From Capniomyces stellatus (taxonomy: Eukaryota; Kickxellomycota; Harpellomycetes; Harpellales; Legeriomycetaceae), in contig LUVW01000002.1 in assembly GCA_001661515.1 (NCBI GenBank), positions 69,850 to 133,849 on the forward strand: a stretch of 64,000 nt of DNA, written 5' to 3'. A program made the translations under genes and the position numbers. Positions 623 through 27,294 of the stretch are shown one piece after another. Every line of letters starts with the position of its first letter. The first letter of the stretch is position 1. A model generated the notes under the pieces. The model was not told where the DNA came from. It did not search any database and was given only the letters and a program-made list of their open reading frames with translations.

Positions 623-1010
623 TTACAAATGTTTAATCAACAATTTTGATTCCTCGATGCTGTTTCTCGAACAAATACTAATAATATTAGAATACTTGGA
701 ATCATCCAGAGTAGCGCCATAGTCGAGCAACATTTTGATAATTTCAGCATTCTTATTCAAACAAGCCTGGCCAAGACCATTGCACTCTTGGTTGGTCAAA
801 TCTGGTTTGTGTAATAGCAACAGTTTCACCATTTCAATGTTGTTAAATTCACATGCCACATCCACCCCAGTATACCTTGTAATTTCCATATCCAACCCAT
901 TAGTAATCAGTTTTTTGGCCAATTCAGTATTATTGGTTTTACACGCCATCCTAAACATATTATTCCAACTGAATCGGGGATACGTAACCTGTTCACCAAC
1001 AGTGACAGAA
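623..1010 (-). pseudogene. Ankyrin-repeat gene fragment (3' end)
   Basis: The minus strand encodes ankyrin-like units with the pattern NNxEMVKLLL and NTELAKKLI, ending at a stop at 623. These are protein-interaction repeats; the specific partner is unknown. The fragment begins at the single undefined base at 1011. On the far side of that base the same sequence starts again almost identically (offset 229 bases), so this is either a second paralogous copy or the other allele joined across an assembly gap. No F-box or start region is attached. I read it as a partial gene in a family with the F-box/ankyrin gene at 1436-3643. Whether it is a broken gene or only truncated by assembly cannot be told from the sequence. 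Confidence 0.6.
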
Positions 1011-1240
1011 NACTCTTGGTTGGTCAAATCTGGTTTGTGTAATAGCAACAGTTTCACCATTTCAATGTTGTTAAATTCACATGCCACATCCACCCCAGTA
1101 TACCTTGTAATTTTCATATCCAAACCATTAGTAATCAGTTTTTTGGCCAATTCAGTATTATTGGTTTTACACGCCATCCTAAACATATTATTCCAACTGA
1201 ATCGGGGATACGTAACCTGTCCACCAACAGTGACAGAATT
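783..1240. repeat. Near-identical tandem copy of about 229 bp around an N
   Basis: The sequence from 783 to 1010 recurs from 1012 to about 1239 with only a few substitutions (for example ttccatatccaacccat against ttttcatatccaaaccat). The undefined base at 1011 sits exactly between the copies, which is typical of two overlapping haplotype or paralogue contigs placed end to end. Confidence 0.8.
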
Positions 1241-1434
1241 TCTACATAGTCTTTATCGCAAGCCTCGTTAATCCCGATATAATATTTACCACTTAGTTTG
1301 CACCATTATCAAGCGACAATTCGACTAACTCGATGTTGTTGTTTCTACAAGCCTCGTCGATCCCGTTATGGCGCGAATCCTCCAATTTAGAACTATAATC
1401 GAGCAGCAGTTCCATCATTACAATGTTGTCGTTT
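1012..1434 (-). pseudogene. Ankyrin-repeat gene fragment with frameshift
   Basis: Bounded by undefined bases at 1011 and 1435. Read on the minus strand from 1434, it gives ankyrin units aligning with the C-terminal units of the 1436-3643 gene (RNNNIELVELSLDNGAN versus RNNNIGLVKILLENGAE). One base is missing after DNGA relative to the intact paralogue, which brings in a TAA stop; the ankyrin frame resumes for CDKDYVEILSLLVDRL. A further frame change precedes the MFRMACKTNN units at 1186-1012. The two frame breaks suggest decay, though errors at a low-quality assembly join could mimic this. The first part matches the end of the neighbouring gene, so the joins probably connect paralogues. Confidence 0.55.
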
Positions 1435-1435
1435 N

Positions 1436-3643
1436 GGGGACATGCAATCTTTCCACTAACAGTGACAGAACCTCGGCATAGTTTTTATTGCAAGCCACCT
1501 TAATCCCATCATAATTAAATTCACATAGTTCAGCACCATTTTCAAGCAAAATTTTGACTAATCCAATGTTGTTATTTCTACAAGCTTGACTGATCGTGTT
1601 ATACTTTGTGTTGTCCAATTTAGCACCATTATCGAGCAGCAGTTTCGTCATTGCAATATTTTCGTTTTTACAGGCTTCTTTAACTTCCTTACATTCTGTG
1701 TTGTCCAATTTAACACCACGCTCAATCAGCAGCTTTGCCATCTCGATGTTATTAATTCTGGCTGCAACCAACAAACCTTTAAAATCGTTACTGTCCACTT
1801 TCAAACCACCTTCAAGCAGCATCTTCGTAGCCTCAATCGCCTTGCTTTCCATCTCTTTTTGGATCTTGACAAAATAACTGGCATTCAATATGAGCCTATT
1901 GCAATCTTTCGAGTCTATTTCTTTAGCCTCTTCAATATCCGCCCTATTTAGCTGTCTACGTGTACCGATTAGGTTGCCACTTTCTTTGTTTTGAGAGACA
2001 AATGTCACTATCTGATTTACAATGGTCAAAACCAGATGTGAGTCTTGGTTATTCCAATCTCTGTATCTTAAATTTCTCTTGATATCTTTTTTTAAACAAA
2101 ATTCTTTTTCAGGATCAAGATGTCGCGATATAAATTCATACTTGGTATTATACTCACAACAGTCTATTTTGTCTAAATAACGTGTGTATTCAAGCAAAAC
2201 CTCGATTATTTCTTTGTAAGCCGATAATCCCCTCCCATTATTGTCGCCTGATAATACTAGATTGTCTGATGTCAGCCTTTTCATTAATCCATTTTTGTAG
2301 AGCTCAATAATATCCTCAACTCCATTAAACTCGTCGTTCCCCAAACTCGATCCGTTTTCAAGTAAATATTTTACCAGCTCTAAATTACCACCTCTAATTG
2401 CTGCTCTCAACGCCAAATTGTCATCTCGGATCACATTTAGGCCTGAATCTATCAACCATTTTAACGTTTCTGAATCACTTGTCTTGTATGCCACCTCTAA
2501 CAGCATCCCTACATTCTCTTCTGTCTGCTCTACTCTAGTAAAAAGTTTTCTTGCTTCATATATATTTCTAGTTTTACAAGCCAGCTTAAACACCTCCTCT
2601 TTGTGTGTCTCAAACAATCTGTGCTGAATTAGATGGCCTGTAAACTCGCCTTTAAATACGATGAATGAAATGAGACACACCATCATGTAAGCGCCAGTTA
2701 CCAAATCCCTATCCTTTTCTACTTTTTCAAGTATATATTCGATGTTCAGATTCACAAAATATGGTTTGTCCAATGTATTTAGATATTCACTGTCTATTTT
2801 GATATCAAGCTCAACCAATTCGTCCAAAAGCTCAAGGTCTCTTCGTATACAAGCTTCAAAGATGATCATCAACAGATATATGAAATAGTAGTTACTATGT
2901 GTCAGCTTGACTCTTTTGATTTTTTCAACAGTTTCCAAATGTTGGCTTAGTATATTTGCCGGAATGTATATTTCCGACCTCCCCAACCCGATAATCTCTT
3001 CTAGAAACTCCATACCTGGCATATTATGGATTTTCTCACTCGGCTTGACAAGGTCTCTGTCTAAATTCATCTCGTTACTCCATTTATTAATGCTTTGATT
3101 TAGATACTTGACTTCAAGGATATTGCTGCCTTTTAAACTGTATAATGGACTGATTGTTAACCCTTCGCTTGCAATATCAGAGTCTCCATATCTTCTATAT
3201 AGTAGAGCTAGCATATCCGCTATATCTATATCCAACAATACACCGTCCGATACATTCGTGTTCGAAAACAGTATCATTCTATCTCTCGAATCCAAAACTA
3301 CATACATTTTAACTATCCATCCCTTCATGCTTTTCCAATTATATTTTCTTGCCAGCTCTACCAGTCTTGGATAACTTATTTTTTTACAGTTTGCCAACGC
3401 CTCTATAATCCATTTTTCATTCTTTGCTATCCTGCTGTATTTGTTTAAAATGTTATCTTCAAAGTCCTCAAAATAAATACAATCACCATCTGCGTTTCTT
3501 GTGTGTAAATTCAAAAATTGCTTGATTGTACTGAACTCGTTTGATACTCTGTAAAGCGTTCTTGAAAGCGTAGATATTTTTGGGTTTTGAGCCAACACAA
3601 ATATTTCCGACACGACACTTTCAGGCAAATCGTCAAACCTCAT
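1436..3643 (-). CDS. F-box-like ankyrin-repeat protein, 3' end cut at an N
   Basis: About 735 residues are readable before the undefined base at 1435. The start ATG is at 3643-3641. The N-terminus (MRFDDLPESVVSEIFVLA...) has the F-box-like pattern DLPxxxxxxIFxLAxNPxxxxLSRxLYxVS, which in known families docks a substrate adaptor to Skp1-cullin ubiquitin ligases. The middle (residues about 50-400) is divergent. Ankyrin units follow, clearest at residues about 390-450 and 610-735, with signatures such as NNIEMAKLLIERG and ENIAMTKLLLDNGAKLD. By inference it is a substrate receptor of an SCF ligase. The true C-terminus is missing, since the frame runs into the N and the few codons beyond belong to another contig. 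The 5' flank is shared with a dead copy at 4084-4213, so the family has expanded here by local duplication. Confidence 0.75.
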
Positions 3644-8363: not shown

Positions 8364-11300
8364 ATGAAATTCAACATATTTCTAGTGGTGAGCCATGCTC
8401 TTACCACCCTGGTTCCAGCTACCGATACTTTGCAGTATTCCAAACGTGAATATACGGGAACTTACCCAAGCGGCTTAGAAAGTGTCACAACCATTGGAAC
8501 TCTGTTTCCAAAAATATGCGAGATCACAACAGGCGAATGCGGTACTAGCACAGAATCTCCAAGCTTGGGAACTATAGTTGAAGTTTCTGGACAGGCGCTT
8601 GTAGTTGGGCCAGAAGTTTTTGTTGAATATGACATTGTGACAGTCAAAACCACGCTTACGTTGGAGATAATTAATTCAGAAAGTCCTGAAACGCTGGCTT
8701 TACAATCAAATGGCCTCTCTGTTGTGTCGGCGAGTTCAGTCAACTATTATTGCCAAGCTACTTTTCCCGACATTAACATTTCATCAGGCGGAGCTTCGTA
8801 TGACATAGGATCTTACAACATGGACGCTCTAGCTCAAATAAGATGCCCTAGCTATGAATTCGATATTTACTTTGACGTAGAATATGGATCTATTTACTAC
8901 GCTCAGCTATTTGGCGCAAACGGTGATGAGAAAAGCAGCAAATTTCAAGGATACTTTGACATGGAAAAAGGTGCCATGGGCTTTAAAGTTACCAACAGCA
9001 CTGGATTTCCCTTTAAAGTAGGAAGCGCCCCAAGCCCTCGATTGTTTATCCGAATAGGCACTAACCATGTTTCGATTGGAATAGACGGCGTAGTAATTGC
9101 AAGTCAACTGATTGAAAGTTCGCAGCTAGTTGAACATATGTTTACAGATAAGCTGTTTTTGATTTTTGGGTCAAACACAGATAATACCAAAATCAAAAAC
9201 ATGATAATAACGTGCAAAAATACTACCCAGTGCCCTTCAACTGATAATCCTATATCCGCACTAGGTATCTCAAGCGATCCCTTATGCGTTAGCACTGTGC
9301 CTGAAATACGCATACCAACTGGGTCAGACTGGTATTCTTCAGAAAACTACAGTTGGGACTCTGCTATTCAAGTCAACTGCCCATACAATAACTTTGAGGT
9401 CACTTTTGATGCTGACAATGGAGCAGAATATTACCTACAAATCCATGACAATAGCACAGTTGGGACCAAGTTCTATGGCGTGTATGGACTCTCTGTTGGA
9501 TCAACTTGGTTCATGTCTCCAAAAAGCTATGGTACTAAAGAGTTCCTAGATTTTTCGTCAGAAATACCTCAACTTTATGCTAGATTTACTCCAGACTATG
9601 TGTCTATTGGAATCAATCACCAAAGCGTACTAGACATTGACAGCTCTGCCTACAATTTTAATCAGTTTAGCACCTCGAAACCGTTGTATTTAATATTTGG
9701 CTCTAAAAGCCAAAATGCAATTATTAGAAACGTGGCAGTAAGCTGTCTTGATATTGCCCATTGCACCATGGGCCCAACAGTAGATTCTACTACAGAATTA
9801 GTAGAAGACTCTACTACTGAATCCACCACTAAACCAACACCAGAATCAGTAGAAGACTCAACAACAGAACCCACCACCGAGTCAACCACCGAGTCAATTG
9901 CCGAGTCAACCACAGAATCAACCACTGAGTCGACAACAGAACCCACCACTGAATCCACCACTGAACCCACCACTGAATCCACCACTGAATCCACCACTGA
10001 ATCAACCACAGAATCAACCACTGAGTCAACCACTGAGACAACCACAGAATCCAAAACAGAAACAAAATCAGACTCTACTCTAGAAGTTACAGAAGATTCG
10101 GTTGGAGATTCAGCTTTGGGTACTATTGATGAAATATCGACAAATTCTATTGCAAGCTCTATAGTATATTCTATGATGCATTCTTTGACACACCACGAGC
10201 CTGCAGAGCCTTCCAATGTTGCTGAGCTTGTCGACACAAACTCTTTTACTACTACATATCCGTGTGTCAGAACGTATTCTGATATCAGCATTCAATCAGA
10301 AGGGCATTCTTATTTCAACGTTTCGGCCTATAATTGGGAGTCTACCGTCCGAGTTGATTGTCCCAGGGATGTCTTTGAGGTTACTTTTGATGTTGATTAC
10401 GATGGAATTTACTATATTCAATTGAATGATTTGCAAGGCTCAGAGAATAGCACCAAGTTTCTGAGTATTTTTGACATGGATGGCGGAACAATGGGATTTA
10501 TATCAATAAAAAGTCTTAGTGAGAAATTTGAGTTGGACAACACTCTTACCCAAAAGCTTTTTATAAGGTTTGCGCCCGACAAAATAGCTATTGGATTAAA
10601 TGGCAAGGTAATTACAAGCATAGACAGCACGGAATCTGAGCTGTCAGAGTTCATGGGAACAAACCAACTGTATATTGTATTGGGGGGTTATAGGAAAGAT
10701 AAAGTGATCAGAAATATAGAGCTGTCGTGCACCAATCCAGTACAATGTCCGCTTCTTGAGACATTAGTACCAGTACCCATTATTGGAACACTCGATACGT
10801 CAAGTTTACCAGAAGATTCGATAACAATGGTTACATCAACAACCGTTTTAGAATACACGTTAACCGACTCAACAACGACTACAACAAGCGACACAACAGA
10901 TACCATCACAACTGATACAATTTCCACTACCACTGCCACTGCCTCAGCAGAATCGATCATTGACTCTTGTACAAACTCGTATTCAGATATAATAATCCAA
11001 AATGGTGGCGACTTTTACAGCTCTACATCATACAACTGGGATTCGATAGCTGAAATAAACTGCCAGAAAGATGCATTTGAAGCAAGCTTTAGCGTTGAAT
11101 ACGGGCTTGTTTACTTTGTTGAAATTAACAACCTAAGAAACTCCACAAACAGCTCAAAGTTCCAAGGTTTGTTTGACATGAAAAACGGGATCATAGGGTT
11201 CCAATCAATTGACAACAATGCAAAGAGCTTTGAACTTAACAACACTGTTAGTTCAAAAGCCTTTGTTAGGTTTGAGTCCAACAAAATCTCAGCGGGATTA

Positions 11301-11462
11301 GACGATGTTGAGGTTGCAAGCATTTTAAGTACCGAGTCCAGCTTGGAAAGTTTTATGGGAGCAGAAAAATTAAGCCTAGTTTTTGGCTCCGAATCAAATA
11401 ACCTAGAAATAAAAGATTTGATTATAGTCTGCAACAGGCAATCAGACTGCCCAGGCTCCTGA
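8364..11462 (+). CDS. Secreted four-domain surface protein with mucin-like linker
   Basis: 1032 residues in one exon. The N-terminus MKFNIFLVVSHALTTLVPA looks like a signal peptide; no C-terminal anchor is visible (it ends in CPGS). Four copies of a domain of about 160 residues lie at roughly 128-292, 308-468, 632-797 and 868-1032. Each has C...Y.DI.I..G, then Y.W.S...I.C, then FEV.FDV(E/D)YG..YY.Q(L/I), then an FxG.FD...G.MGF block, then L(F/Y).RF...(K/V).SIG(I/L), and closes with L.FGS....I.N..(V/L).C.....CP. Four Cys per copy are conserved. Domains 2 and 3 are separated by a Thr/Glu/Ser-rich tract (residues about 472-575, repeated TEST/TEPT units), typical of O-glycosylated stalks. The domain layout suggests a lectin-like beta sandwich, but that is inference; I do not recognise the family. 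The same domain ends the convergent trypsin-like gene at 11888. A cell-surface or matrix adhesin is the likely role. Confidence 0.75.
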   Translation: MKFNIFLVVSHALTTLVPATDTLQYSKREYTGTYPSGLESVTTIGTLFPKICEITTGECGTSTESPSLGTIVEVSGQALVVGPEVFVEYDIVTVKTTLTLEIINSESPETLALQSNGLSVVSASSVNYYCQATFPDINISSGGASYDIGSYNMDALAQIRCPSYEFDIYFDVEYGSIYYAQLFGANGDEKSSKFQGYFDMEKGAMGFKVTNSTGFPFKVGSAPSPRLFIRIGTNHVSIGIDGVVIASQLIESSQLVEHMFTDKLFLIFGSNTDNTKIKNMIITCKNTTQCPSTDNPISALGISSDPLCVSTVPEIRIPTGSDWYSSENYSWDSAIQVNCPYNNFEVTFDADNGAEYYLQIHDNSTVGTKFYGVYGLSVGSTWFMSPKSYGTKEFLDFSSEIPQLYARFTPDYVSIGINHQSVLDIDSSAYNFNQFSTSKPLYLIFGSKSQNAIIRNVAVSCLDIAHCTMGPTVDSTTELVEDSTTESTTKPTPESVEDSTTEPTTESTTESIAESTTESTTESTTEPTTESTTEPTTESTTESTTESTTESTTESTTETTTESKTETKSDSTLEVTEDSVGDSALGTIDEISTNSIASSIVYSMMHSLTHHEPAEPSNVAELVDTNSFTTTYPCVRTYSDISIQSEGHSYFNVSAYNWESTVRVDCPRDVFEVTFDVDYDGIYYIQLNDLQGSENSTKFLSIFDMDGGTMGFISIKSLSEKFELDNTLTQKLFIRFAPDKIAIGLNGKVITSIDSTESELSEFMGTNQLYIVLGGYRKDKVIRNIELSCTNPVQCPLLETLVPVPIIGTLDTSSLPEDSITMVTSTTVLEYTLTDSTTTTTSDTTDTITTDTISTTTATASAESIIDSCTNSYSDIIIQNGGDFYSSTSYNWDSIAEINCQKDAFEASFSVEYGLVYFVEINNLRNSTNSSKFQGLFDMKNGIIGFQSIDNNAKSFELNNTVSSKAFVRFESNKISAGLDDVEVASILSTESSLESFMGAEKLSLVFGSESNNLEIKDLIIVCNRQSDCPGS
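9778..10090 (+). repeat. In-frame Thr/Glu/Ser repeat tract
   Basis: Tandem 12- and 24-base variants of gaatccaccactgaacccacc encode TEST/TEPT units. Repeat number is likely to vary between strains by slippage. The long antisense frame over it is a by-product of the repeat. Confidence 0.8.
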
Positions 11463-11887
11463 AAAGTATTACTAGTTAAAGCACTAGGCTTTGCCGATCA
11501 ACTTTCAAGTTTTCTTGCCTATAACATATACACAGTGGGCAATTCAAAAGCCCGTCACCGATTTCCTGGAATAATTTAATTTGAAATTATCATAAATTTA
11601 AACGATAAAAACTATTATCGCAATTCTTTTTTATTTATTTTATTAACGAGTTTATTGGTAACAGAATCAACACACCAAAATTCTTTTTTTAATAAAAAAA
11701 ACTATACCGTTTATGATTTATAGTTAATACCTAGAAAGCCAGGAATGCTATATTTGTATGTATATATTTATTTATCTAAGAATGCTATATTTACAATTAT
11801 AAAATTAGTTTTGCTATTACAAAAACTATGCATTTCTATCCAGGCTTAAGGAATCAAATATTGGCATGAATCTTTTAGTATTATCAT
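11463..11887. terminator. Shared 3' region of two convergent genes
   Basis: About 425 bp of AT-rich DNA between two stop codons that face each other. It contains several aataaa/ttaata-type stretches suited to polyadenylation on either strand, but no defined signal can be assigned. Confidence 0.4.
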
Positions 11888-13465
11888 TTACTGTGTACAG
11901 TTAGCTTTGTCGATGCAATTGACTTGGATTTTTGATATTGTTGTTTTATCCTTTTCTGACCCCAGTCCAAGATAAAGCGCGCTGGACGACATCATAGCTT
12001 TATAGTTATACTCTGACGGTTTAATACGCAAAACCACTTTATTATTATACCCAATGGCAATTCCATTATTTCCGGAGATTATCTGAACTTTAGTACTATT
12101 TATATTAACCAATTTATTTTCTCCAGCTTTTGCAGGCTTGTTGCCCTCCAGCGTCCATTTCCCGGTATTTAATCCCAATTTTGCTTTAGTCAAATATGTT
12201 CTCTGTAGGCCTGATTTGATGTATATGGCAAAGTAATAGTCTGACGAGCTTTTAACCTCCAAACTGACAGAAAACCCAGCATCCTTGCATTTAATTTGCA
12301 GCGCTTTACCGAAGCTCGGAGCCATTTTTGAGTTTGACCCGGCACCTTTATTTATAACTAAATCCTTATATTTTTTATTACACTTGTTGCTATTAATAAC
12401 ACGACCGTCGTCAAAGCAGACCCCTGCGTTATCGCATCTTGGTCCTGTACATGAAATATGCTTTGAAATAAACGAGTTCCAATAACCCGACAGAAGCATA
12501 TATACCGCAACAGAGCCGTTGGAGTTGCATGAGTTGCCCTTTGGTTGTATTATGGTGCTTCCTATTCCTATAAGTTTGGTGTAATCTCTGCTAACTAGTG
12601 GTCCGCCGCTGTCGCCAAAACATATGGAGCCAACTGAGGATTGGGAAACACAGAATACTTTGCCGCTCTTTACGTTTTGTTTATGGTAGACATTACAGAC
12701 GGATGGATTGCCTGCCACTACTGCCAACTGCTGCAGTACTGAATGCCTTGAAGCATCAGAACCAGAATCAGACGCCCCAAATCCTAGTATTCTAAAGCTT
12801 GAATTGATGTTTACCCGTTCCTTTTCAATTTCGACTGGGGTCGCAATGCTATTTGGAACACAGCTGCTTAGAACTAGTAATGCTATATCGTTCTATAGTC
12901 AGTATTTAACATAAGCCATTCAGAATTTGGCATTGTGTAGTATCTCAATGACTCGAATAGCTGTAAAGTCAGCCTTCCAACTAATAGAGTATGTACTGGT
13001 GTCACTAGTTGCCCATGTTATATCAACTGGTTGTGCATGTAAGCAACTTACATTATACGGCTTTACGTGCTTGTAATCGGGGTGGATTATAACCTTCTTC
13101 ACTTTAAATATGTTTTTGTTTATAGGTAGCGGATCGATGCTACCTACTCCTACTTGTATTTTGTCCATATTGGCTGGTAGGCTGGTCTTTGACCCCACCA
13201 AGCACTGTGCTGCTGTTATTACTACATTTGGCGCTATGAGCGTTGCGGTGCAGCTGAAAGCCACTTTGCCAGTGGTTCTAAAGTGCACCACTGATTTAAA
13301 ATGTTTGAATTCTGCATTTAACCCACCATCAATGTTTGCCACTATTCTGTCGTCGACACTGTCTTTTGCTGATATGATAGGTATGTAACTGTTTAATGAA
13401 GATTGATGCGATGGGTTGATAAAATATACAAACAGATACAAGAGTAATGATAGTAACTTGGACAT
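11888..13465 (-). CDS. Trypsin-family serine protease homologue, His-to-Gln, with extra C-terminal domain
   Basis: Two exons (13465-13052 and 12892-11888) with an intron 13051-12893 (donor GTAAGT, acceptor CTATAG) give 472 residues. A signal-like N-terminus (MSKLLSLLLYLFVYF) precedes an activation-type motif DDRIVANIDGG near residue 39. The catalytic His of the TAAHC motif is replaced: the sequence reads TAAQC (Gln87, codon CAG). Asp140 (NDIALL, formed by the splice junction) and Ser233 (GDSGGPL) are present, and the S1-pocket position is Ser227. Such changes make inactive serine protease homologues in other groups, so catalysis is doubtful. Residues about 305-472 form a diverged copy of the domain found four times in the neighbouring 8364-11462 gene (KYKDLVINKG, YYFAIYIKSG, VNCIDKANC). 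It is probably secreted. By inference it acts in binding or as a decoy, not in proteolysis. Confidence 0.82.
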
Positions 13466-20418: not shown

Positions 20419-23400
20419 ATGAATGCAGGTTACCAACAAGGCAATGCAAAGTTGAAATGTTCACCTCAAGATTTGAAAGCCTCAGAAATATGGGCGAATC
20501 GAAATAATAGTGGCAAGTTAAAGAAAGTAATAAAACTCGACAAAACCAAAATAGCCGAAAATAGAGGCAAATTCAAAAGCAAGTACAAAACAACGATCCA
20601 AGAGAAAATGAGCAACATAGGAAGTGTTGTGGTTGCTAGTGAGGAATTGAAAAAACTGAACTGTGTTTGTAGTCAACAAACAAGCGATGACTCGGCAGAA
20701 AAGGCCAGACAGACACACTTGAATTTTAAAAGGAATGTTTATAACAGAATTTGGATAGATAGAACAGATAGAATAGAAAAAGTCGATGCAGTCGATAGGA
20801 AGGGCGATCACATGGATTTATACAATGAGCATCAAGAAGCTAATAAAGTGAATATGGTTGATGGGGAAATAAAAGGGCCTTCGCGATATGAAGGGGGAGT
20901 TAATTTAAGGTACGATGAAAGCCAAGTAAGTTGGCGTGAGGCATTAGCGGTTGAAGGACCACGAATAAATTATTCGGCTATAGGAGCACCCCTAAGCTAC
21001 AACCCAACATACATAAACAATAACAGCAACGCTCCAAGCCGCAACAGCGTAAACAATTTAGTGGGCGGTAGCAGATACGAAGACTATGCAAACTACGGCC
21101 AACAGTCTTGGTTTTACGACGCCCACGGCCTACAAAACAATCAAAATGTAAATTACACTCGAATAGCAGACAATAACCGTTACCCGCAAATGGATCCACC
21201 ACCATCGCCAACAATACCTTCTTTTTATACCAGAGATACACACAATTTGATGTTGCCCGCTTCACCAAGACAGTATGCGCCACAAATACATCATCCCAAC
21301 ATTAGCAACTCCAACTGCACTAGTTACCAAACCTCAGAGTATAGAAATGATAGAAATTGCTACGAGAGTACCAGCTACAGGACCAACGGCTACAATCCAG
21401 ATAACATGGTTGGCAACGAACGGACTGATTACACAGTTCCCAACACCGCACTGGGCATTGGTGTAGGGGCGACAGAAGGGGCCCGATTTTTTGCTTTAAG
21501 TTGCCAGTTTGGTTGTTGCAACAACCAGCTGGGTCCCAGACTTGATGGCGCTAGCCTAGGCTGTACTCGAAACACAAGCTATAGCAACTTGGCCTATGGC
21601 GATAATGGAAGCGGATATTCAGACAACGCGAACGGTTTGGCTCGAGCACAGCCTAGCAACATACCACTCAATCCGTACTATCCAAACCTGAGTCAAAATA
21701 TTCTCCATGAAAATAGTGCATATACTGATTCAATCTACCAACAAGCTGGTAGCCAAACCAACTCGTCTAGATATTATGCTGGTTCGGAATACAGCTACCA
21801 TGGAGCGGTCGCTGGTAACATTGGTCAATATAACAATTTGGCCATGGGGAACGATGAGGTAAACTATAAAGACAGCTCTGTTGAGAGACGCCACTACTTT
21901 TTAAACGGAAACGATGAAGAAAACAAAGCTACTCAAAGCCTCGAGGCTGGAAGTGTATATAGCAGCGGCTTTGTGGGCAGCAATTCGAACACACACCAAA
22001 ATGGACATATGGGTTCCAGCCACCAGAACCATTACGGCGGACCCAACCAAATAGGCGTCTGCGAGAGCAACTATAAATTCCAAAGCGACTACAGCAACCA
22101 AAATGGGATTGGGTTGAACAGTAACTTGGGTGGGTATGGTTTGGGGGAGCAAACGTTTGATGAGGCAAAGCTTGAAAAGATACTGATATACGCACACGAG
22201 ACGTTCGCGAAAAACCACATGGACAGGAATTTGCTATCCGACCTTGAGTATATATGTCATAGCTATCCGAAATTCCTTCCAGGGAAACTGCTTTTAGCGT
22301 GTGTTCACTTTTCAAGACGGAGCTTTGACGAGTCGTTGAAAGTGAATATGGACATTTTGTCGATTGAGCCCAGCTATGTTGAGGCAATGTCTAATATAGG
22401 AACAACGCTCCAGAGTATGGGGCGATTAAAAGAGGCAGAGGGCTGGTGGCGGAAGGCAATTAGGATAAAGAATGACTACTTTGACGCGATCGAAAACCTG
22501 ATAGGCGTTTTGTGTGCTAATGAGTCTGGCGGTGCAAAGCCGAGGTACTCTGAGGCTCTCCAGATCTGTGAATTTGTGGTAAGCAGATTGGAGATTGGTG
22601 TTGATGGCAACGGCAGCGGCGCCCCAGGGGGAATAGATGGTGTACAAGGAACACAGGGGAGGAGAAAGAGGCCTAAAGCATACAGTGTGCTGGATAAACA
22701 CAGGCCTAGACTCCAGTCGCTGCTCTACTCGCTGGGAAACCTGAAGCACACACTAGGGGATGCTATTGGAGCCAGAGCCGTGTACCAAGACGCCATTGAG
22801 TGTGTACTGGGGGAGATGACGCTGAGTGAGCTGATGGAAGATATGGAACGGGTTGCAAAACTAGATGAGCTAAGTCAGGTTTATGACAGCGCGATATATG
22901 GCAGTGGTCCTGGCACTGATGCAAATGAGTCAATGGACTGCAACGAGGGGTCAAGGGACCTGTGCCCCAGCAAAAGCATTGGTGGCTGGATGGCAAGTTT
23001 GAAGACGTTCCTGATGACTCCAAGCAGGGCAACAGAGTGCTTGAATATAATATTCCCCGGCTACAATGGGCTGCTTCCCGGGCTTGCAGCCGCGCTTACA
23101 GGGGACAGATCTGTTGAGCTTCAAGTAAGTCAAGTGTCAGCCAATTTGCTCCTAACCCTTGCAAAGTCCTTTCAAGAACACCCAACCGAGGTGCAGCCGC
23201 TATCGGTTGTTCTTCCCCTGTACTATCTGTCATTGGCACTGAATCCATCGCCCTCAACATGCAACAACTTGGGGATTATTCTGTCTGGACTGCCTAGTCC
23301 GCTGACACCAGTCAACTTACCTAATGGAGCAAACCCAAACAGGCCTATTCAGACCCAGGCGTCATTGGGGTCGGCATTGGCAATGCAGTACTATGCCTTT

Positions 23401-26400
23401 GGGCTGACACTGGACCCAAAGCATCCACACCTATACACGAACCTAGGCAGTTTACTGAAGGATCTTGGCTTTGTTCCAGAAGCCATAAACATGTATGAGA
23501 AGGCTGTTGAATACAACCCGAGCTTCGATGTGGCTTTGGCCAACTTGGGGAACGCAGTGCGTGACATGGGCCGTATTCAGGACTCGGTGGAGTGGTACCT
23601 GAGGGCTGTCAAGTCTAACCCAGGTCTAGTCGAAGCCTTCTGCGGACTTGCAAGTGCCATGGCTGGCATCTGCGACTGGCGTGGCAGAGATGGCTGTCAC
23701 CCCAAATTCATCAATAGCTCTATGCCAAGAACCATGGTTTACGAGCCAATCTCCCAGCTACTGTACCAGATCTCTACAGAAAGCAGGAACTTGGCTATGC
23801 ACACAGATGGCAAGTATGGCCTTATAAAAGCCAACGTCAACACGAGTCAACCAGCCATTGGCAACCAAAACGCCGATCCACGTTGTAGGATGTCCAACCA
23901 GCGAATGGTTGGCTGGATGGATAGAGTGGTCGAAATTGTTGAGGACCAGCTATCCTCTCAGACCTACGCAGACAGGTTCTTCTTATTATCTATCACACAG
24001 GACCAAATCAACTTCATAAACCACCTTTACTTGCAAAGCCCGAGCACGAACAAACACGCTACAAATAATGTGCACGCAGAGGCTATTGATCTTAAGTTTG
24101 TGCCTACAAGAAACATGGTGGTTTTTCTTGAAAAGGTGCAGTTGGCTTTTGAAAACTACAACTCTTACAAAGCCAGCCAAAAAAGACTGCACGCATCAAA
24201 CCAGCGGGCTGATCCAGGTCATGACTGCATGGTTTCAAGGTACGTCAAAAGATCTTCACATCTTGCAAGAACCATTGAGGCGTTGGTGAATGCAGCTGAA
24301 AAAGGTTTACCCAAGCCTAGTTGCACACTGCCAGCAGACCATGGACACGGAACCGAGTTTGGCGGGTGCAAAAATAGCAATGACCACCAATGCGCGGATT
24401 CTGCCAACTTTTCTCACATTGCAAACGGTGGCACCAGCCACTTAAGTGCAAGGGTTGGTGACTTGTTAGAGTGGAAAAGGTTGACAGACAGCATTCTGAA
24501 TGAGGGTGGTTGGGCAGTGAGGCTTATTGAAGCGGCAAATCGGTGTCTGTACCGTCTTTGGTATATTGAAAAAAACAAAACTGTGCAAACTGTTGAAGAG
24601 TTTGGCCGTTTGGCAGCTAGCTGGCAGAACAAGCTTGTTTTGCCAGCCGGAATAGCATCCCCTTCCGTCCCCACGGTTCTTCCCTTCCACACCTTTACGT
24701 ACCCAGTGGGACCAAGGCAAGTTCGGCTAATTTCCCACAGAAACGCACTCCGTGTATCCCACAACGTCTATGGGGGCGTGCAAAGCCAAGTCCCGCTGCT
24801 GCCGATCGGTGTCTACCCGCCCCCAGGCCTGCCAAAGCCAGCAGAAGCCCTCATCCCGAGTGCTAGTTCAGGTTTAAACAGGCCGGCAAACCTGACAGCG
24901 GCATTGTCGATCAAGTCGCTGAAGTTGGACTCGGAAATCAAAGCCAAGGAATCCAACAGTGCTTTAAACAGCGTTAATGACAAGCACATTTTGAACATTG
25001 GCTATGTGTCGAGCGACTTTAACAACCACCCTCTGTCGCACCTGATGCAATCGGTGTTTGGCTTCCACGATCGATCCGGGTTCCGGTCATTTTGCTACTC
25101 GACATCGGCTCCAGACAACTCGGTGTACCGTGCTAAGATCATGCGTACAACAGACGTATTCCGCGATGTCAGCCTGCTTTCAAACAACCAGATCATTGAC
25201 CAAATGGCCCAAGACAACATCCACATTTTGGTCAATTTGAACGGATACACCAAAGGCGCTAGAAACGAGATATTTGCTGCTCGGCCTGCTCCCCTGGTTG
25301 TTGCGTACATGGGGTTTGCTGGCGGTTTAGGCTCAGGATGGTGCGATTACATGATCACCGACCCCATTGCTTGTCCGCCCTGGACAGTCAAGTCCGAGCT
25401 AGATGTAATAAAACACCACATCCAACCCAGCAGCAATAACCTTGTCAGAAACGACTCCAAACTGGACCTGCACTCCTCGAGCAACACCAGCTCTAGCTCA
25501 TGGCTTGGCTACGGCAACAGTGACTTGGAAACTGGGAATGAGCCTGGACATGGACCTGACTGCTCATTCAGCGAGTATGACCCTGAAGAAAGTGATGAGT
25601 CGTGGATATATGCTGAACGGGTGATATACCTTCCACACTCTTACTTTGTCAACGACCACCGCCAATCCTCAATCGACCAAAACTACCTGTACCCAAACTC
25701 TGCCAACAAGCCGGTTCCCAGTATCCACCACTTGAACAGCGACAGAACCACCCCTGAAAACAAAACCGACTTGTTCTCTGAATCTAAAGCTAGGTCTGAA
25801 CTCGACACACCAAATGATCCTGCAATCAACACCAACACCAACTCTGGCTACGCACCTTGCTCAAGCTCAACCGCATACCTCCGAAATGATCACCCAGCGG
25901 GCAACTGTGGTCTACTGCTACATAAAGACCTGGTTCCGGCTCCTTTGCCAGCAGTGCTGCCCAAACTTCCTACTCCGGAGCCGGTAGAAATTGTAGAAGA
26001 GGCTGTAGACGTAGTCAGCGAGTCAGAGTTGCAGTGGCTTAATGAACAGGACCTGCGCTGGGCCACTCGGGTCAGGCTGTTTCCATGGCTTCCTCAGGAC
26101 ACCTTTATATTTGCAAACTTTAACCAGCTGTACAAAATTGATCCTTCACTGTTCAAGCTTTGGCTTTCGATTCTTGAAGCCACCCCAAACTCTATACTCT
26201 GGCTGCTAAACTTTCCGCAAGCAGGCCAGCAAAACCTAATCCAGGTGGCTATACAGTGGTGTGGCGAGGAGTTGGCAAGCAGAGTGGTGTTTACGAATGT
26301 GGCGGCCAAGTGCCTTCACATATTTAGAGGCAGAGTTGCCGACCTGTTTTTGGACTCGTTTGATTGCAACGCTCACACTACTGCTGTGGATATACTGTGG

Positions 26401-27294
26401 AGCGGAACTCCTATCCTCACTTGGCCAAAGCTAGACTACAAAATGTGCTGCCGTGTTGGTGCTTCTGTTGCTTCAGCTGCTACAAACTTTTCCAACTCGC
26501 ACATTCTGCACAAGTCCAACATGATGATTGTTGGCTCTGAGACCCAGTACTTTGAACGCGCAGTCCAGTTTGCAAACTCGCTAAAGGTCAAATATGTTTT
26601 GCTTTCAACACCCTCAACGCTACTCCCAGCCTCTCATCACTCCCCCTTGGTACACCGCTTCCAACCACCATTAAACAGTACACAGAGCTCTAGCTACCCA
26701 TTCAACGAGCACAACATGTTTGTTCCTGACCCAATAACCAAAAGGGTTGTTCATAGACTGACCAGCGGACTGGTAAGCGACTATAGAAAGGCTCTTTTTA
26801 CCAACAGGTTCCAAAACCGCCTTTTTGACACCAAAAGGTGGGTTAGAAACCTTGAAACCGGTCTTAAAACTATCTGGGACGAATGGGTTGAAAACGGCTA
26901 TTGCAAAGGAATCAGACCCACCAAACCACAAAGCCCAATCCACCAACCTCACACTGGCTACGCCGATGACTGCCACTCTGTTAGTACTGTAAACAACTCT
27001 AAAAACACTCGCTTTTATCTCTCCCAGCTTGCCGGTTCCATCCACCAAAAACACGCCTTTAACGTGTCTAAATTCCGCTCAGCCGTCATCACCAATACAA
27101 GCTCAAAAACAAGCTTCGACACTCCAACTGACCCCATCAATCAATCAAGAACTAATGTCAACAATGAAAGCTGCTCTAACGACCTTGCCTCTTACAAGGA
27201 CCTGGCTATTATTTCTCCTGCACAAAATGTATATGTTTTAGACGCCGATGACGGGATGCCATCACTTGATAGTCTCATTTCTTTGTCGTTCTAA
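20419..27294 (+). CDS. Giant O-GlcNAc transferase (GT41) with TPR region
   Basis: 2291 residues in one exon. The enzyme class moves GlcNAc from UDP-GlcNAc to Ser/Thr of nuclear and cytosolic proteins. Residues 1-580 are Asn/Tyr/Ser-rich and unlike known domains. TPR-like helical units occupy about 585-1090 (for example NIGTTLQSMGRLKEAEGWWRKA and LYTNLGSLLKDLGFVPEAINMYEKA). The catalytic half starts near 1520 with GYVSSDFNNHPLSHLMQS and ILVNLNGYTKGARNE, closely matching animal OGT. Positions equivalent to human His498, Lys842 and His920 are present (His1537, Lys1906 in FNQLYKIDP, His1986 in NAHTTAVDILWSGTP), so activity is expected. The region between the two catalytic lobes (about 1655-1870) is long, acidic and Ser/Asn-rich, larger than the animal intervening domain in spacing and unlike it in sequence. 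A further low-complexity tail follows residue 2180. Ascomycete yeasts lack this enzyme, while basal fungi keep it. Confidence 0.93.
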   Translation: MNAGYQQGNAKLKCSPQDLKASEIWANRNNSGKLKKVIKLDKTKIAENRGKFKSKYKTTIQEKMSNIGSVVVASEELKKLNCVCSQQTSDDSAEKARQTHLNFKRNVYNRIWIDRTDRIEKVDAVDRKGDHMDLYNEHQEANKVNMVDGEIKGPSRYEGGVNLRYDESQVSWREALAVEGPRINYSAIGAPLSYNPTYINNNSNAPSRNSVNNLVGGSRYEDYANYGQQSWFYDAHGLQNNQNVNYTRIADNNRYPQMDPPPSPTIPSFYTRDTHNLMLPASPRQYAPQIHHPNISNSNCTSYQTSEYRNDRNCYESTSYRTNGYNPDNMVGNERTDYTVPNTALGIGVGATEGARFFALSCQFGCCNNQLGPRLDGASLGCTRNTSYSNLAYGDNGSGYSDNANGLARAQPSNIPLNPYYPNLSQNILHENSAYTDSIYQQAGSQTNSSRYYAGSEYSYHGAVAGNIGQYNNLAMGNDEVNYKDSSVERRHYFLNGNDEENKATQSLEAGSVYSSGFVGSNSNTHQNGHMGSSHQNHYGGPNQIGVCESNYKFQSDYSNQNGIGLNSNLGGYGLGEQTFDEAKLEKILIYAHETFAKNHMDRNLLSDLEYICHSYPKFLPGKLLLACVHFSRRSFDESLKVNMDILSIEPSYVEAMSNIGTTLQSMGRLKEAEGWWRKAIRIKNDYFDAIENLIGVLCANESGGAKPRYSEALQICEFVVSRLEIGVDGNGSGAPGGIDGVQGTQGRRKRPKAYSVLDKHRPRLQSLLYSLGNLKHTLGDAIGARAVYQDAIECVLGEMTLSELMEDMERVAKLDELSQVYDSAIYGSGPGTDANESMDCNEGSRDLCPSKSIGGWMASLKTFLMTPSRATECLNIIFPGYNGLLPGLAAALTGDRSVELQVSQVSANLLLTLAKSFQEHPTEVQPLSVVLPLYYLSLALNPSPSTCNNLGIILSGLPSPLTPVNLPNGANPNRPIQTQASLGSALAMQYYAFGLTLDPKHPHLYTNLGSLLKDLGFVPEAINMYEKAVEYNPSFDVALANLGNAVRDMGRIQDSVEWYLRAVKSNPGLVEAFCGLASAMAGICDWRGRDGCHPKFINSSMPRTMVYEPISQLLYQISTESRNLAMHTDGKYGLIKANVNTSQPAIGNQNADPRCRMSNQRMVGWMDRVVEIVEDQLSSQTYADRFFLLSITQDQINFINHLYLQSPSTNKHATNNVHAEAIDLKFVPTRNMVVFLEKVQLAFENYNSYKASQKRLHASNQRADPGHDCMVSRYVKRSSHLARTIEALVNAAEKGLPKPSCTLPADHGHGTEFGGCKNSNDHQCADSANFSHIANGGTSHLSARVGDLLEWKRLTDSILNEGGWAVRLIEAANRCLYRLWYIEKNKTVQTVEEFGRLAASWQNKLVLPAGIASPSVPTVLPFHTFTYPVGPRQVRLISHRNALRVSHNVYGGVQSQVPLLPIGVYPPPGLPKPAEALIPSASSGLNRPANLTAALSIKSLKLDSEIKAKESNSALNSVNDKHILNIGYVSSDFNNHPLSHLMQSVFGFHDRSGFRSFCYSTSAPDNSVYRAKIMRTTDVFRDVSLLSNNQIIDQMAQDNIHILVNLNGYTKGARNEIFAARPAPLVVAYMGFAGGLGSGWCDYMITDPIACPPWTVKSELDVIKHHIQPSSNNLVRNDSKLDLHSSSNTSSSSWLGYGNSDLETGNEPGHGPDCSFSEYDPEESDESWIYAERVIYLPHSYFVNDHRQSSIDQNYLYPNSANKPVPSIHHLNSDRTTPENKTDLFSESKARSELDTPNDPAINTNTNSGYAPCSSSTAYLRNDHPAGNCGLLLHKDLVPAPLPAVLPKLPTPEPVEIVEEAVDVVSESELQWLNEQDLRWATRVRLFPWLPQDTFIFANFNQLYKIDPSLFKLWLSILEATPNSILWLLNFPQAGQQNLIQVAIQWCGEELASRVVFTNVAAKCLHIFRGRVADLFLDSFDCNAHTTAVDILWSGTPILTWPKLDYKMCCRVGASVASAATNFSNSHILHKSNMMIVGSETQYFERAVQFANSLKVKYVLLSTPSTLLPASHHSPLVHRFQPPLNSTQSSSYPFNEHNMFVPDPITKRVVHRLTSGLVSDYRKALFTNRFQNRLFDTKRWVRNLETGLKTIWDEWVENGYCKGIRPTKPQSPIHQPHTGYADDCHSVSTVNNSKNTRFYLSQLAGSIHQKHAFNVSKFRSAVITNTSSKTSFDTPTDPINQSRTNVNNESCSNDLASYKDLAIISPAQNVYVLDADDGMPSLDSLISLSF

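Follow-up and report, generated by a model that had tools for sequence, protein, structure and literature searches.

A predicted beta-sandwich domain with four conserved cysteines, carried by mucin-like repeat proteins and by often catalytically incomplete trypsin homologues of a Harpellales-like fungus

Two convergent genes at positions 8364 to 13465 of a 64,000-nucleotide stretch of fungal DNA (the window, meaning the whole stretch) encode a 1032-residue protein and a trypsin homologue, and raise the question of whether the two share a domain and, if so, whether the sharing makes them a system. The first-pass annotation had proposed both, describing a domain with four conserved Cys that occurs four times in the 1032-residue protein (copies D1 to D4) and once at the C-terminus of the trypsin homologue (copy T). 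Its observation is confirmed. The aligned copies share 13 invariant columns, four of them Cys, and all 10 pairwise local scores exceed the best of their own 1000 shuffles (lowest z 12.2, D4 versus T). The trypsin C-terminus scores 71.0 bits with a profile built from the four plus-strand copies, whereas the best of 2000 shuffles reaches 9.3; these controls rule out chance resemblance, and with it an unrelated protease C-terminus. The interpretation is partly supported and needs three corrections: the domain extends beyond the two genes, T belongs to another subfamily than D1–D4, and the trypsin homologue lacks the catalytic His. The parts of the two genes are as follows.

8364-11462, plus strand: open reading frame of the 1032-residue protein, with four domain copies and two Thr/Ser-rich linkers
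8364..8741, plus strand: its N-terminus, with a hydrophobic start resembling a secretion signal (by eye) and a Cys-containing region
8742..9239, plus strand: domain copy D1, placed by profile and alignment
9279..9773, plus strand: domain copy D2, joined in the tree to copies 2 and 4 of the C16 protein (support 100/98)
9774..10250, plus strand: first mucin-like linker, 159 residues with 48 Thr and 29 Ser
10251..10757, plus strand: domain copy D3, an AlphaFold-predicted beta-sandwich (predicted local distance difference test, pLDDT, 80.9; predicted template modelling score, pTM, 0.80)
10758..10961, plus strand: second mucin-like linker, 68 residues with 24 Thr and 9 Ser
10962..11459, plus strand: domain copy D4, placed by profile and alignment
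13465-11888, minus strand: trypsin homologue gene with one GT-AG intron, encoding a trypsin-like domain followed by one domain copy (473 residues)
13052..13465, minus strand: exon 1, with a start resembling a secretion signal (by eye), an activation-like site R-IVAN, and TAAQC
12893..13051, minus strand: intron of 159 bases, GTAAGT...CTGACTATAG
11888..12892, minus strand: exon 2, retaining NDIAL (Asp) and GDSGGP (Ser), followed by the domain and the stop
11891..12391, minus strand: domain copy T, an AlphaFold-predicted beta-sandwich (pLDDT 78.4, pTM 0.78)

The spread of the domain was examined in the 24.5 Mb genome (59 contigs). Searching with D3 gave 29 matches and with T 45 matches, both at E <= 10, while a divergent C-terminal sister form, homologous to this first form, gave 45 at E <= 1. 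Matches at E <= 1e-3 were merged (28 of 29 for D3, 31 of 45 for T, and 30 of the 37 qualifying for the sister form, the other 7 overlapping first-form places already entered), yielding 60 non-overlapping places in about 39 gene-like clusters, with the first form as best query in 30 and the sister form in 30. A search with a copy from C56 (46 matches) was kept apart from this set. Two pairs of places score identically, C13:399655 with C46:54786 and C33:279601 with C33:313968, which suggests recent duplications or duplicated assembly pieces. The genome also holds ten Zn2Cys6 matches, consistent with a fungal origin, and, tallied per exon, 120 trypsin matches. Further trypsin-like genes do bear the domain, a point that the first-pass annotation had left to be checked: 19 of the 60 places lie at most 2.5 kb downstream of a same-strand trypsin match, behind 11 distinct trypsin pieces. 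These match counts should be taken as minima, and the 19 leave out degenerate trypsins that Pfam misses (e.g. those beside L033 and L062). Tandem copies are also present where no catalytic domain occurs (C12, C16), and copies can follow long linkers.

A tree of 29 of the 30 first-form copies, from which the weak C39 copy was left out, bears directly on the neighbouring pair. It is rooted by midpoint only and 6 of its 26 inner branches are well supported; one split, with support 100/99, separates 12 copies from 17. The set of 12 comes from proteins without trypsin, namely the window's 1032-residue protein, C16 and four proteins on C14, and the set of 17 comprises 11 copies on trypsin-like genes and 6 on further proteins with no recognised trypsin. 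D1–D4 fall in the former set, D2 with two C16 copies, and T in the latter, so the neighbours did not recently acquire the domain from each other; recent local exchange is excluded by the tree. The genome search found C14 free of trypsin matches, and likewise the 100 kb to either side of the C16 gene, although degenerate trypsins could escape it there. Of the six genes in the four-repeat protein's set, one is thus seen to be paired in this way. Adjacency, convergence and a common domain are what a dedicated two-component system would offer, for example a surface protein with its cognate protease homologue. With the copies in distinct subfamilies, and no trypsin match beside the other five genes of the set, we consider such a system very improbable, and the first-pass proposal that pairing and sharing define one is not supported. 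The two neighbours are just two among the many carriers of the domain. The proteins that supply the 12 copies may have something else in common: a profile of the N-terminal region of C16 and the four C14 proteins scores window positions 8364-8741 at 15.2 bits, against 13.1 for the best of 2000 shuffles, which is suggestive of a possible N-terminal module (VGPGT.VEY.TVT-like) in these proteins and the 1032-residue one.

The trypsin homologue of the window is recognised by Pfam (PF00089 above cut-off in both exon open reading frames, 35.2 bits in exon 1), and its His-Asp-Ser triad is incomplete. TAAQC stands in place of TAAHC, replacing the catalytic His with Gln, and the Asp and Ser motifs are retained. 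By eye, the position of its intron, just ahead of the Asp motif, is matched in six family genes (L020, L023, L033, L050, L062 and L080), and at least four others (L025, L028, L029 and L030) have no intron there. Pattern matching and inspection by eye gave the triad of 17 trypsin-like genes that bear the domain, a subset of all such genes, and 10 of the 17 lack a triad residue. His is lost in the window gene, C39 and C1:209k; Ser is replaced by Ile in C56:133645 and by Asn in C20:7k, C29, C38, C13, C1:1564k and C33:279k, and four of these ten genes (C29, C13, C1:1564k and C33:279k) are close paralogues. Three genes have a complete triad with GGSGG for GDSGG (C34:549800, C18 and C3), and four appear intact (C56:128646, C2, C33:499k and C5). 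The domain is nonetheless rejected as a mark of dead proteases. In a comparison set of 10 trypsins without the domain, chosen without a random scheme, the triad is incomplete in four as well (L083, L084, L086 and L089); consequently no enrichment of dead trypsins is claimed, and dead folds are common across the genome. A second trypsin-like group, L081-L086 (e.g. L082:285-1949, minus strand), carries a charged C-terminal region of roughly 200-300 residues, and in the three proteins of this group that were scanned the trypsin domain is all that Pfam recognises. Catalytically dead trypsins are known from insects as serine protease homologues. Like the genes described here, these encode secretion-type multidomain proteins whose trypsin domain has lost triad residues; the present ones differ in being fungal and in carrying a C-terminal beta-sandwich, and by Pfam the window gene has no clip domain.

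What, then, is the domain itself? As the first-pass annotation supposed, it goes unrecognised by the catalogued families, no Pfam model scoring under E 0.005. The best E-value other than Trypsin is 3.9 for the 1032-residue protein in Pfam and, for nine full proteins, 0.019 in Pfam and 0.0044 in NCBIfam. The 29 first-form copies reach 0.0052 in Pfam and 0.02 in NCBIfam, and the 18 sister copies, scanned with Pfam alone, 0.019. Searches of a protein database that includes Zancudomyces and Smittium returned nothing at E <= 10 for the five-copy alignment (605 candidates) and nothing at E <= 1 for an alignment of nine proteins (7990 scored); relatives may have escaped these searches through limits on length and on words, or through Thr-rich words from the linkers, so the result does not establish that other Harpellales lack the domain. 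Sequence searches of PDB reached best E-values of 0.74, 0.16 and, over 49 residues, 0.015, and one gave no match; the titles, abstract openings and passages of the literature searched hold nothing on the domain.

The family that recurs most often among the first-form copies is PF12248, the farnesoic acid O-methyltransferase-like family, and the domain could be a divergent, fast-evolving branch of it, a possibility we regard as real though not the favoured one, and one compatible with a binding role. PF12248 supplies the best Pfam value quoted above and is matched in 4 of the 29 copies, which were also rescanned singly; two of the four are near-identical, and the three that are distinct align in register, with residues 22, 32 and 24 of the respective copies falling at profile positions 4, 13 and 5 in the N-terminal half. 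All four stay under the curated cut-off, however (top score 17.0 bits against 24.2), and span 56–73 of the 140 profile positions, and the family is unlisted in 25 of the 29 first-form and in all 18 sister copies. A whole-genome search for PF12248 gave no match, but its 14 control genomes were equally silent. The kinship raised by the first-pass annotation keeps a weak hint from register and recurrence without reaching threshold; distant kinship is possible and unproven.

Structure prediction places the domain as a beta-sandwich of about 165 residues of the concanavalin A/galectin type, and comparison of the predicted structures bears out the galectin-like fold suggested at first pass. The top Foldseek matches of both the D3 and T models are the C-terminal sandwiches of GH32 enzymes (levanase, levan fructotransferase, inulinase). 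Other concanavalin A-like folds are also returned, among them alginate lyases, glucanases and a legume lectin, which indicates likeness to a fold class rather than to a single family. Galectins differ from the domain in showing 5–15% identity in the structural matches, and the domain has four conserved Cys and resides in secretion-type proteins. In place of the GH32 arrangement, with its catalytic propeller ahead of the sandwich, the domain here is preceded by a trypsin-like domain or by no catalytic domain, and Pfam finds no GH32 family in the three window sequences, the nine proteins or the 29 first-form and 18 sister copies. The likeness to GH32 sandwiches could also mean that the domain serves to stabilise structure or assist folding, with no ligand of its own, as the GH32 sandwich may do. 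The near-invariant columns of the 29 copies (Cys, Phe and Gly) look like core positions, in keeping with that proposal; tandem copies lacking a catalytic domain and copies set behind long linkers make stabilisation of a neighbour unlikely, and we think this explanation rather doubtful.

The reading we favour, with a probability of roughly 0.55, is that the domain, with this predicted sandwich, is secreted and serves to bind or tether at surfaces, that it forms a large family within a Harpellales-like fungus, and that it probably holds disulfides C1–C4 and C2–C3. Homology, family size, architectures and the loss of catalytic residues are observed; secretion, binding and the surface itself are inferred. 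The disulfide pairing is favoured on balance because the Cys concerned are mostly lost in pairs: in the first-form set of 29, two copies lack both C1 and C4, four lack both C2 and C3 (two near-identical), two have C4 displaced by one residue, and one end-masked copy is uninformative. C3 and C4 are invariant in the 18 sister copies. Where it sits on a trypsin-like protein, joined by a Thr-rich linker or not, the domain would act as a C-terminal anchor or targeting part, keeping a protease fold, whether active or dead, at a surface. Arranged in tandem and partly on mucin-like stalks, as seen in the 1032-residue protein and its relative on C16, it would make an adhesin- or matrix-like protein. 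Candidate surfaces are the fungal wall, the spore glue and the insect gut lining.

Several points weigh against this reading. Sandwiches of the GH32 type need not themselves bind anything. The motif H-x-[NG]-x-R, the carbohydrate signature of galectins, is found in none of the 47 copies (the piece W..E.R in one), and the Pfam scan of the 29 first-form and 18 sister copies lists no galectin family at E <= 1; the carbohydrate binding raised as a possibility at first pass may still occur without this motif. The secretion-type N-termini of the carriers, which agree with the first-pass description, were judged by eye, so that secretion is likely rather than established. As for the disulfides, one first-form copy has lost C3 alone, and the sister copy L033 has lost C2 alone. 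For attachment to the gut, a fasciclin-domain protein has already been proposed in Harpellales (PMC5954228).

A gut-associated lifestyle of the host fungus is suggested by its relatives. The HECT region of one window gene is 71% identical over 373 residues to that of Zancudomyces culisetae, which is classed in Harpellales, Kickxellomycotina, and 57% to the next, Smittium mucronatum. Elsewhere in the window, ankyrin-like repeat open reading frames (by eye) occupy positions 623-3643 on the minus strand, including a duplicated stretch bridged by masked bases, and a single unbroken frame of 2291 residues at 20419-27294 on the plus strand resembles, by eye, an O-GlcNAc transferase with tetratricopeptide repeats.

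Harpellales inhabit insect guts, including those of aquatic larvae, and their spores release glue there; a comparative study found that, of four known fungal adhesins, the order has few or none, and it expected a novel means of attachment to the gut (PMC5954228). It is conceivable, if a long shot, that the present family is a main protein component of that adhesive, with tandem beta-sandwiches on mucin-like stalks serving as glue. The same domain would then display trypsin homologues, dead and alive, within the glue, and the dead ones might act to draw off protease inhibitors of the gut as decoys. Judged by the libraries searched, what appears new is the domain family, how widely it has spread and, in a fungus related to gut dwellers, its association with trypsins that are often dead. 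Counts of Pfam Trypsin alone would report as proteases a group of multidomain proteins in which most of the genes read lack a triad residue, and the domain family offers further candidates for attachment that can be tested directly for binding.
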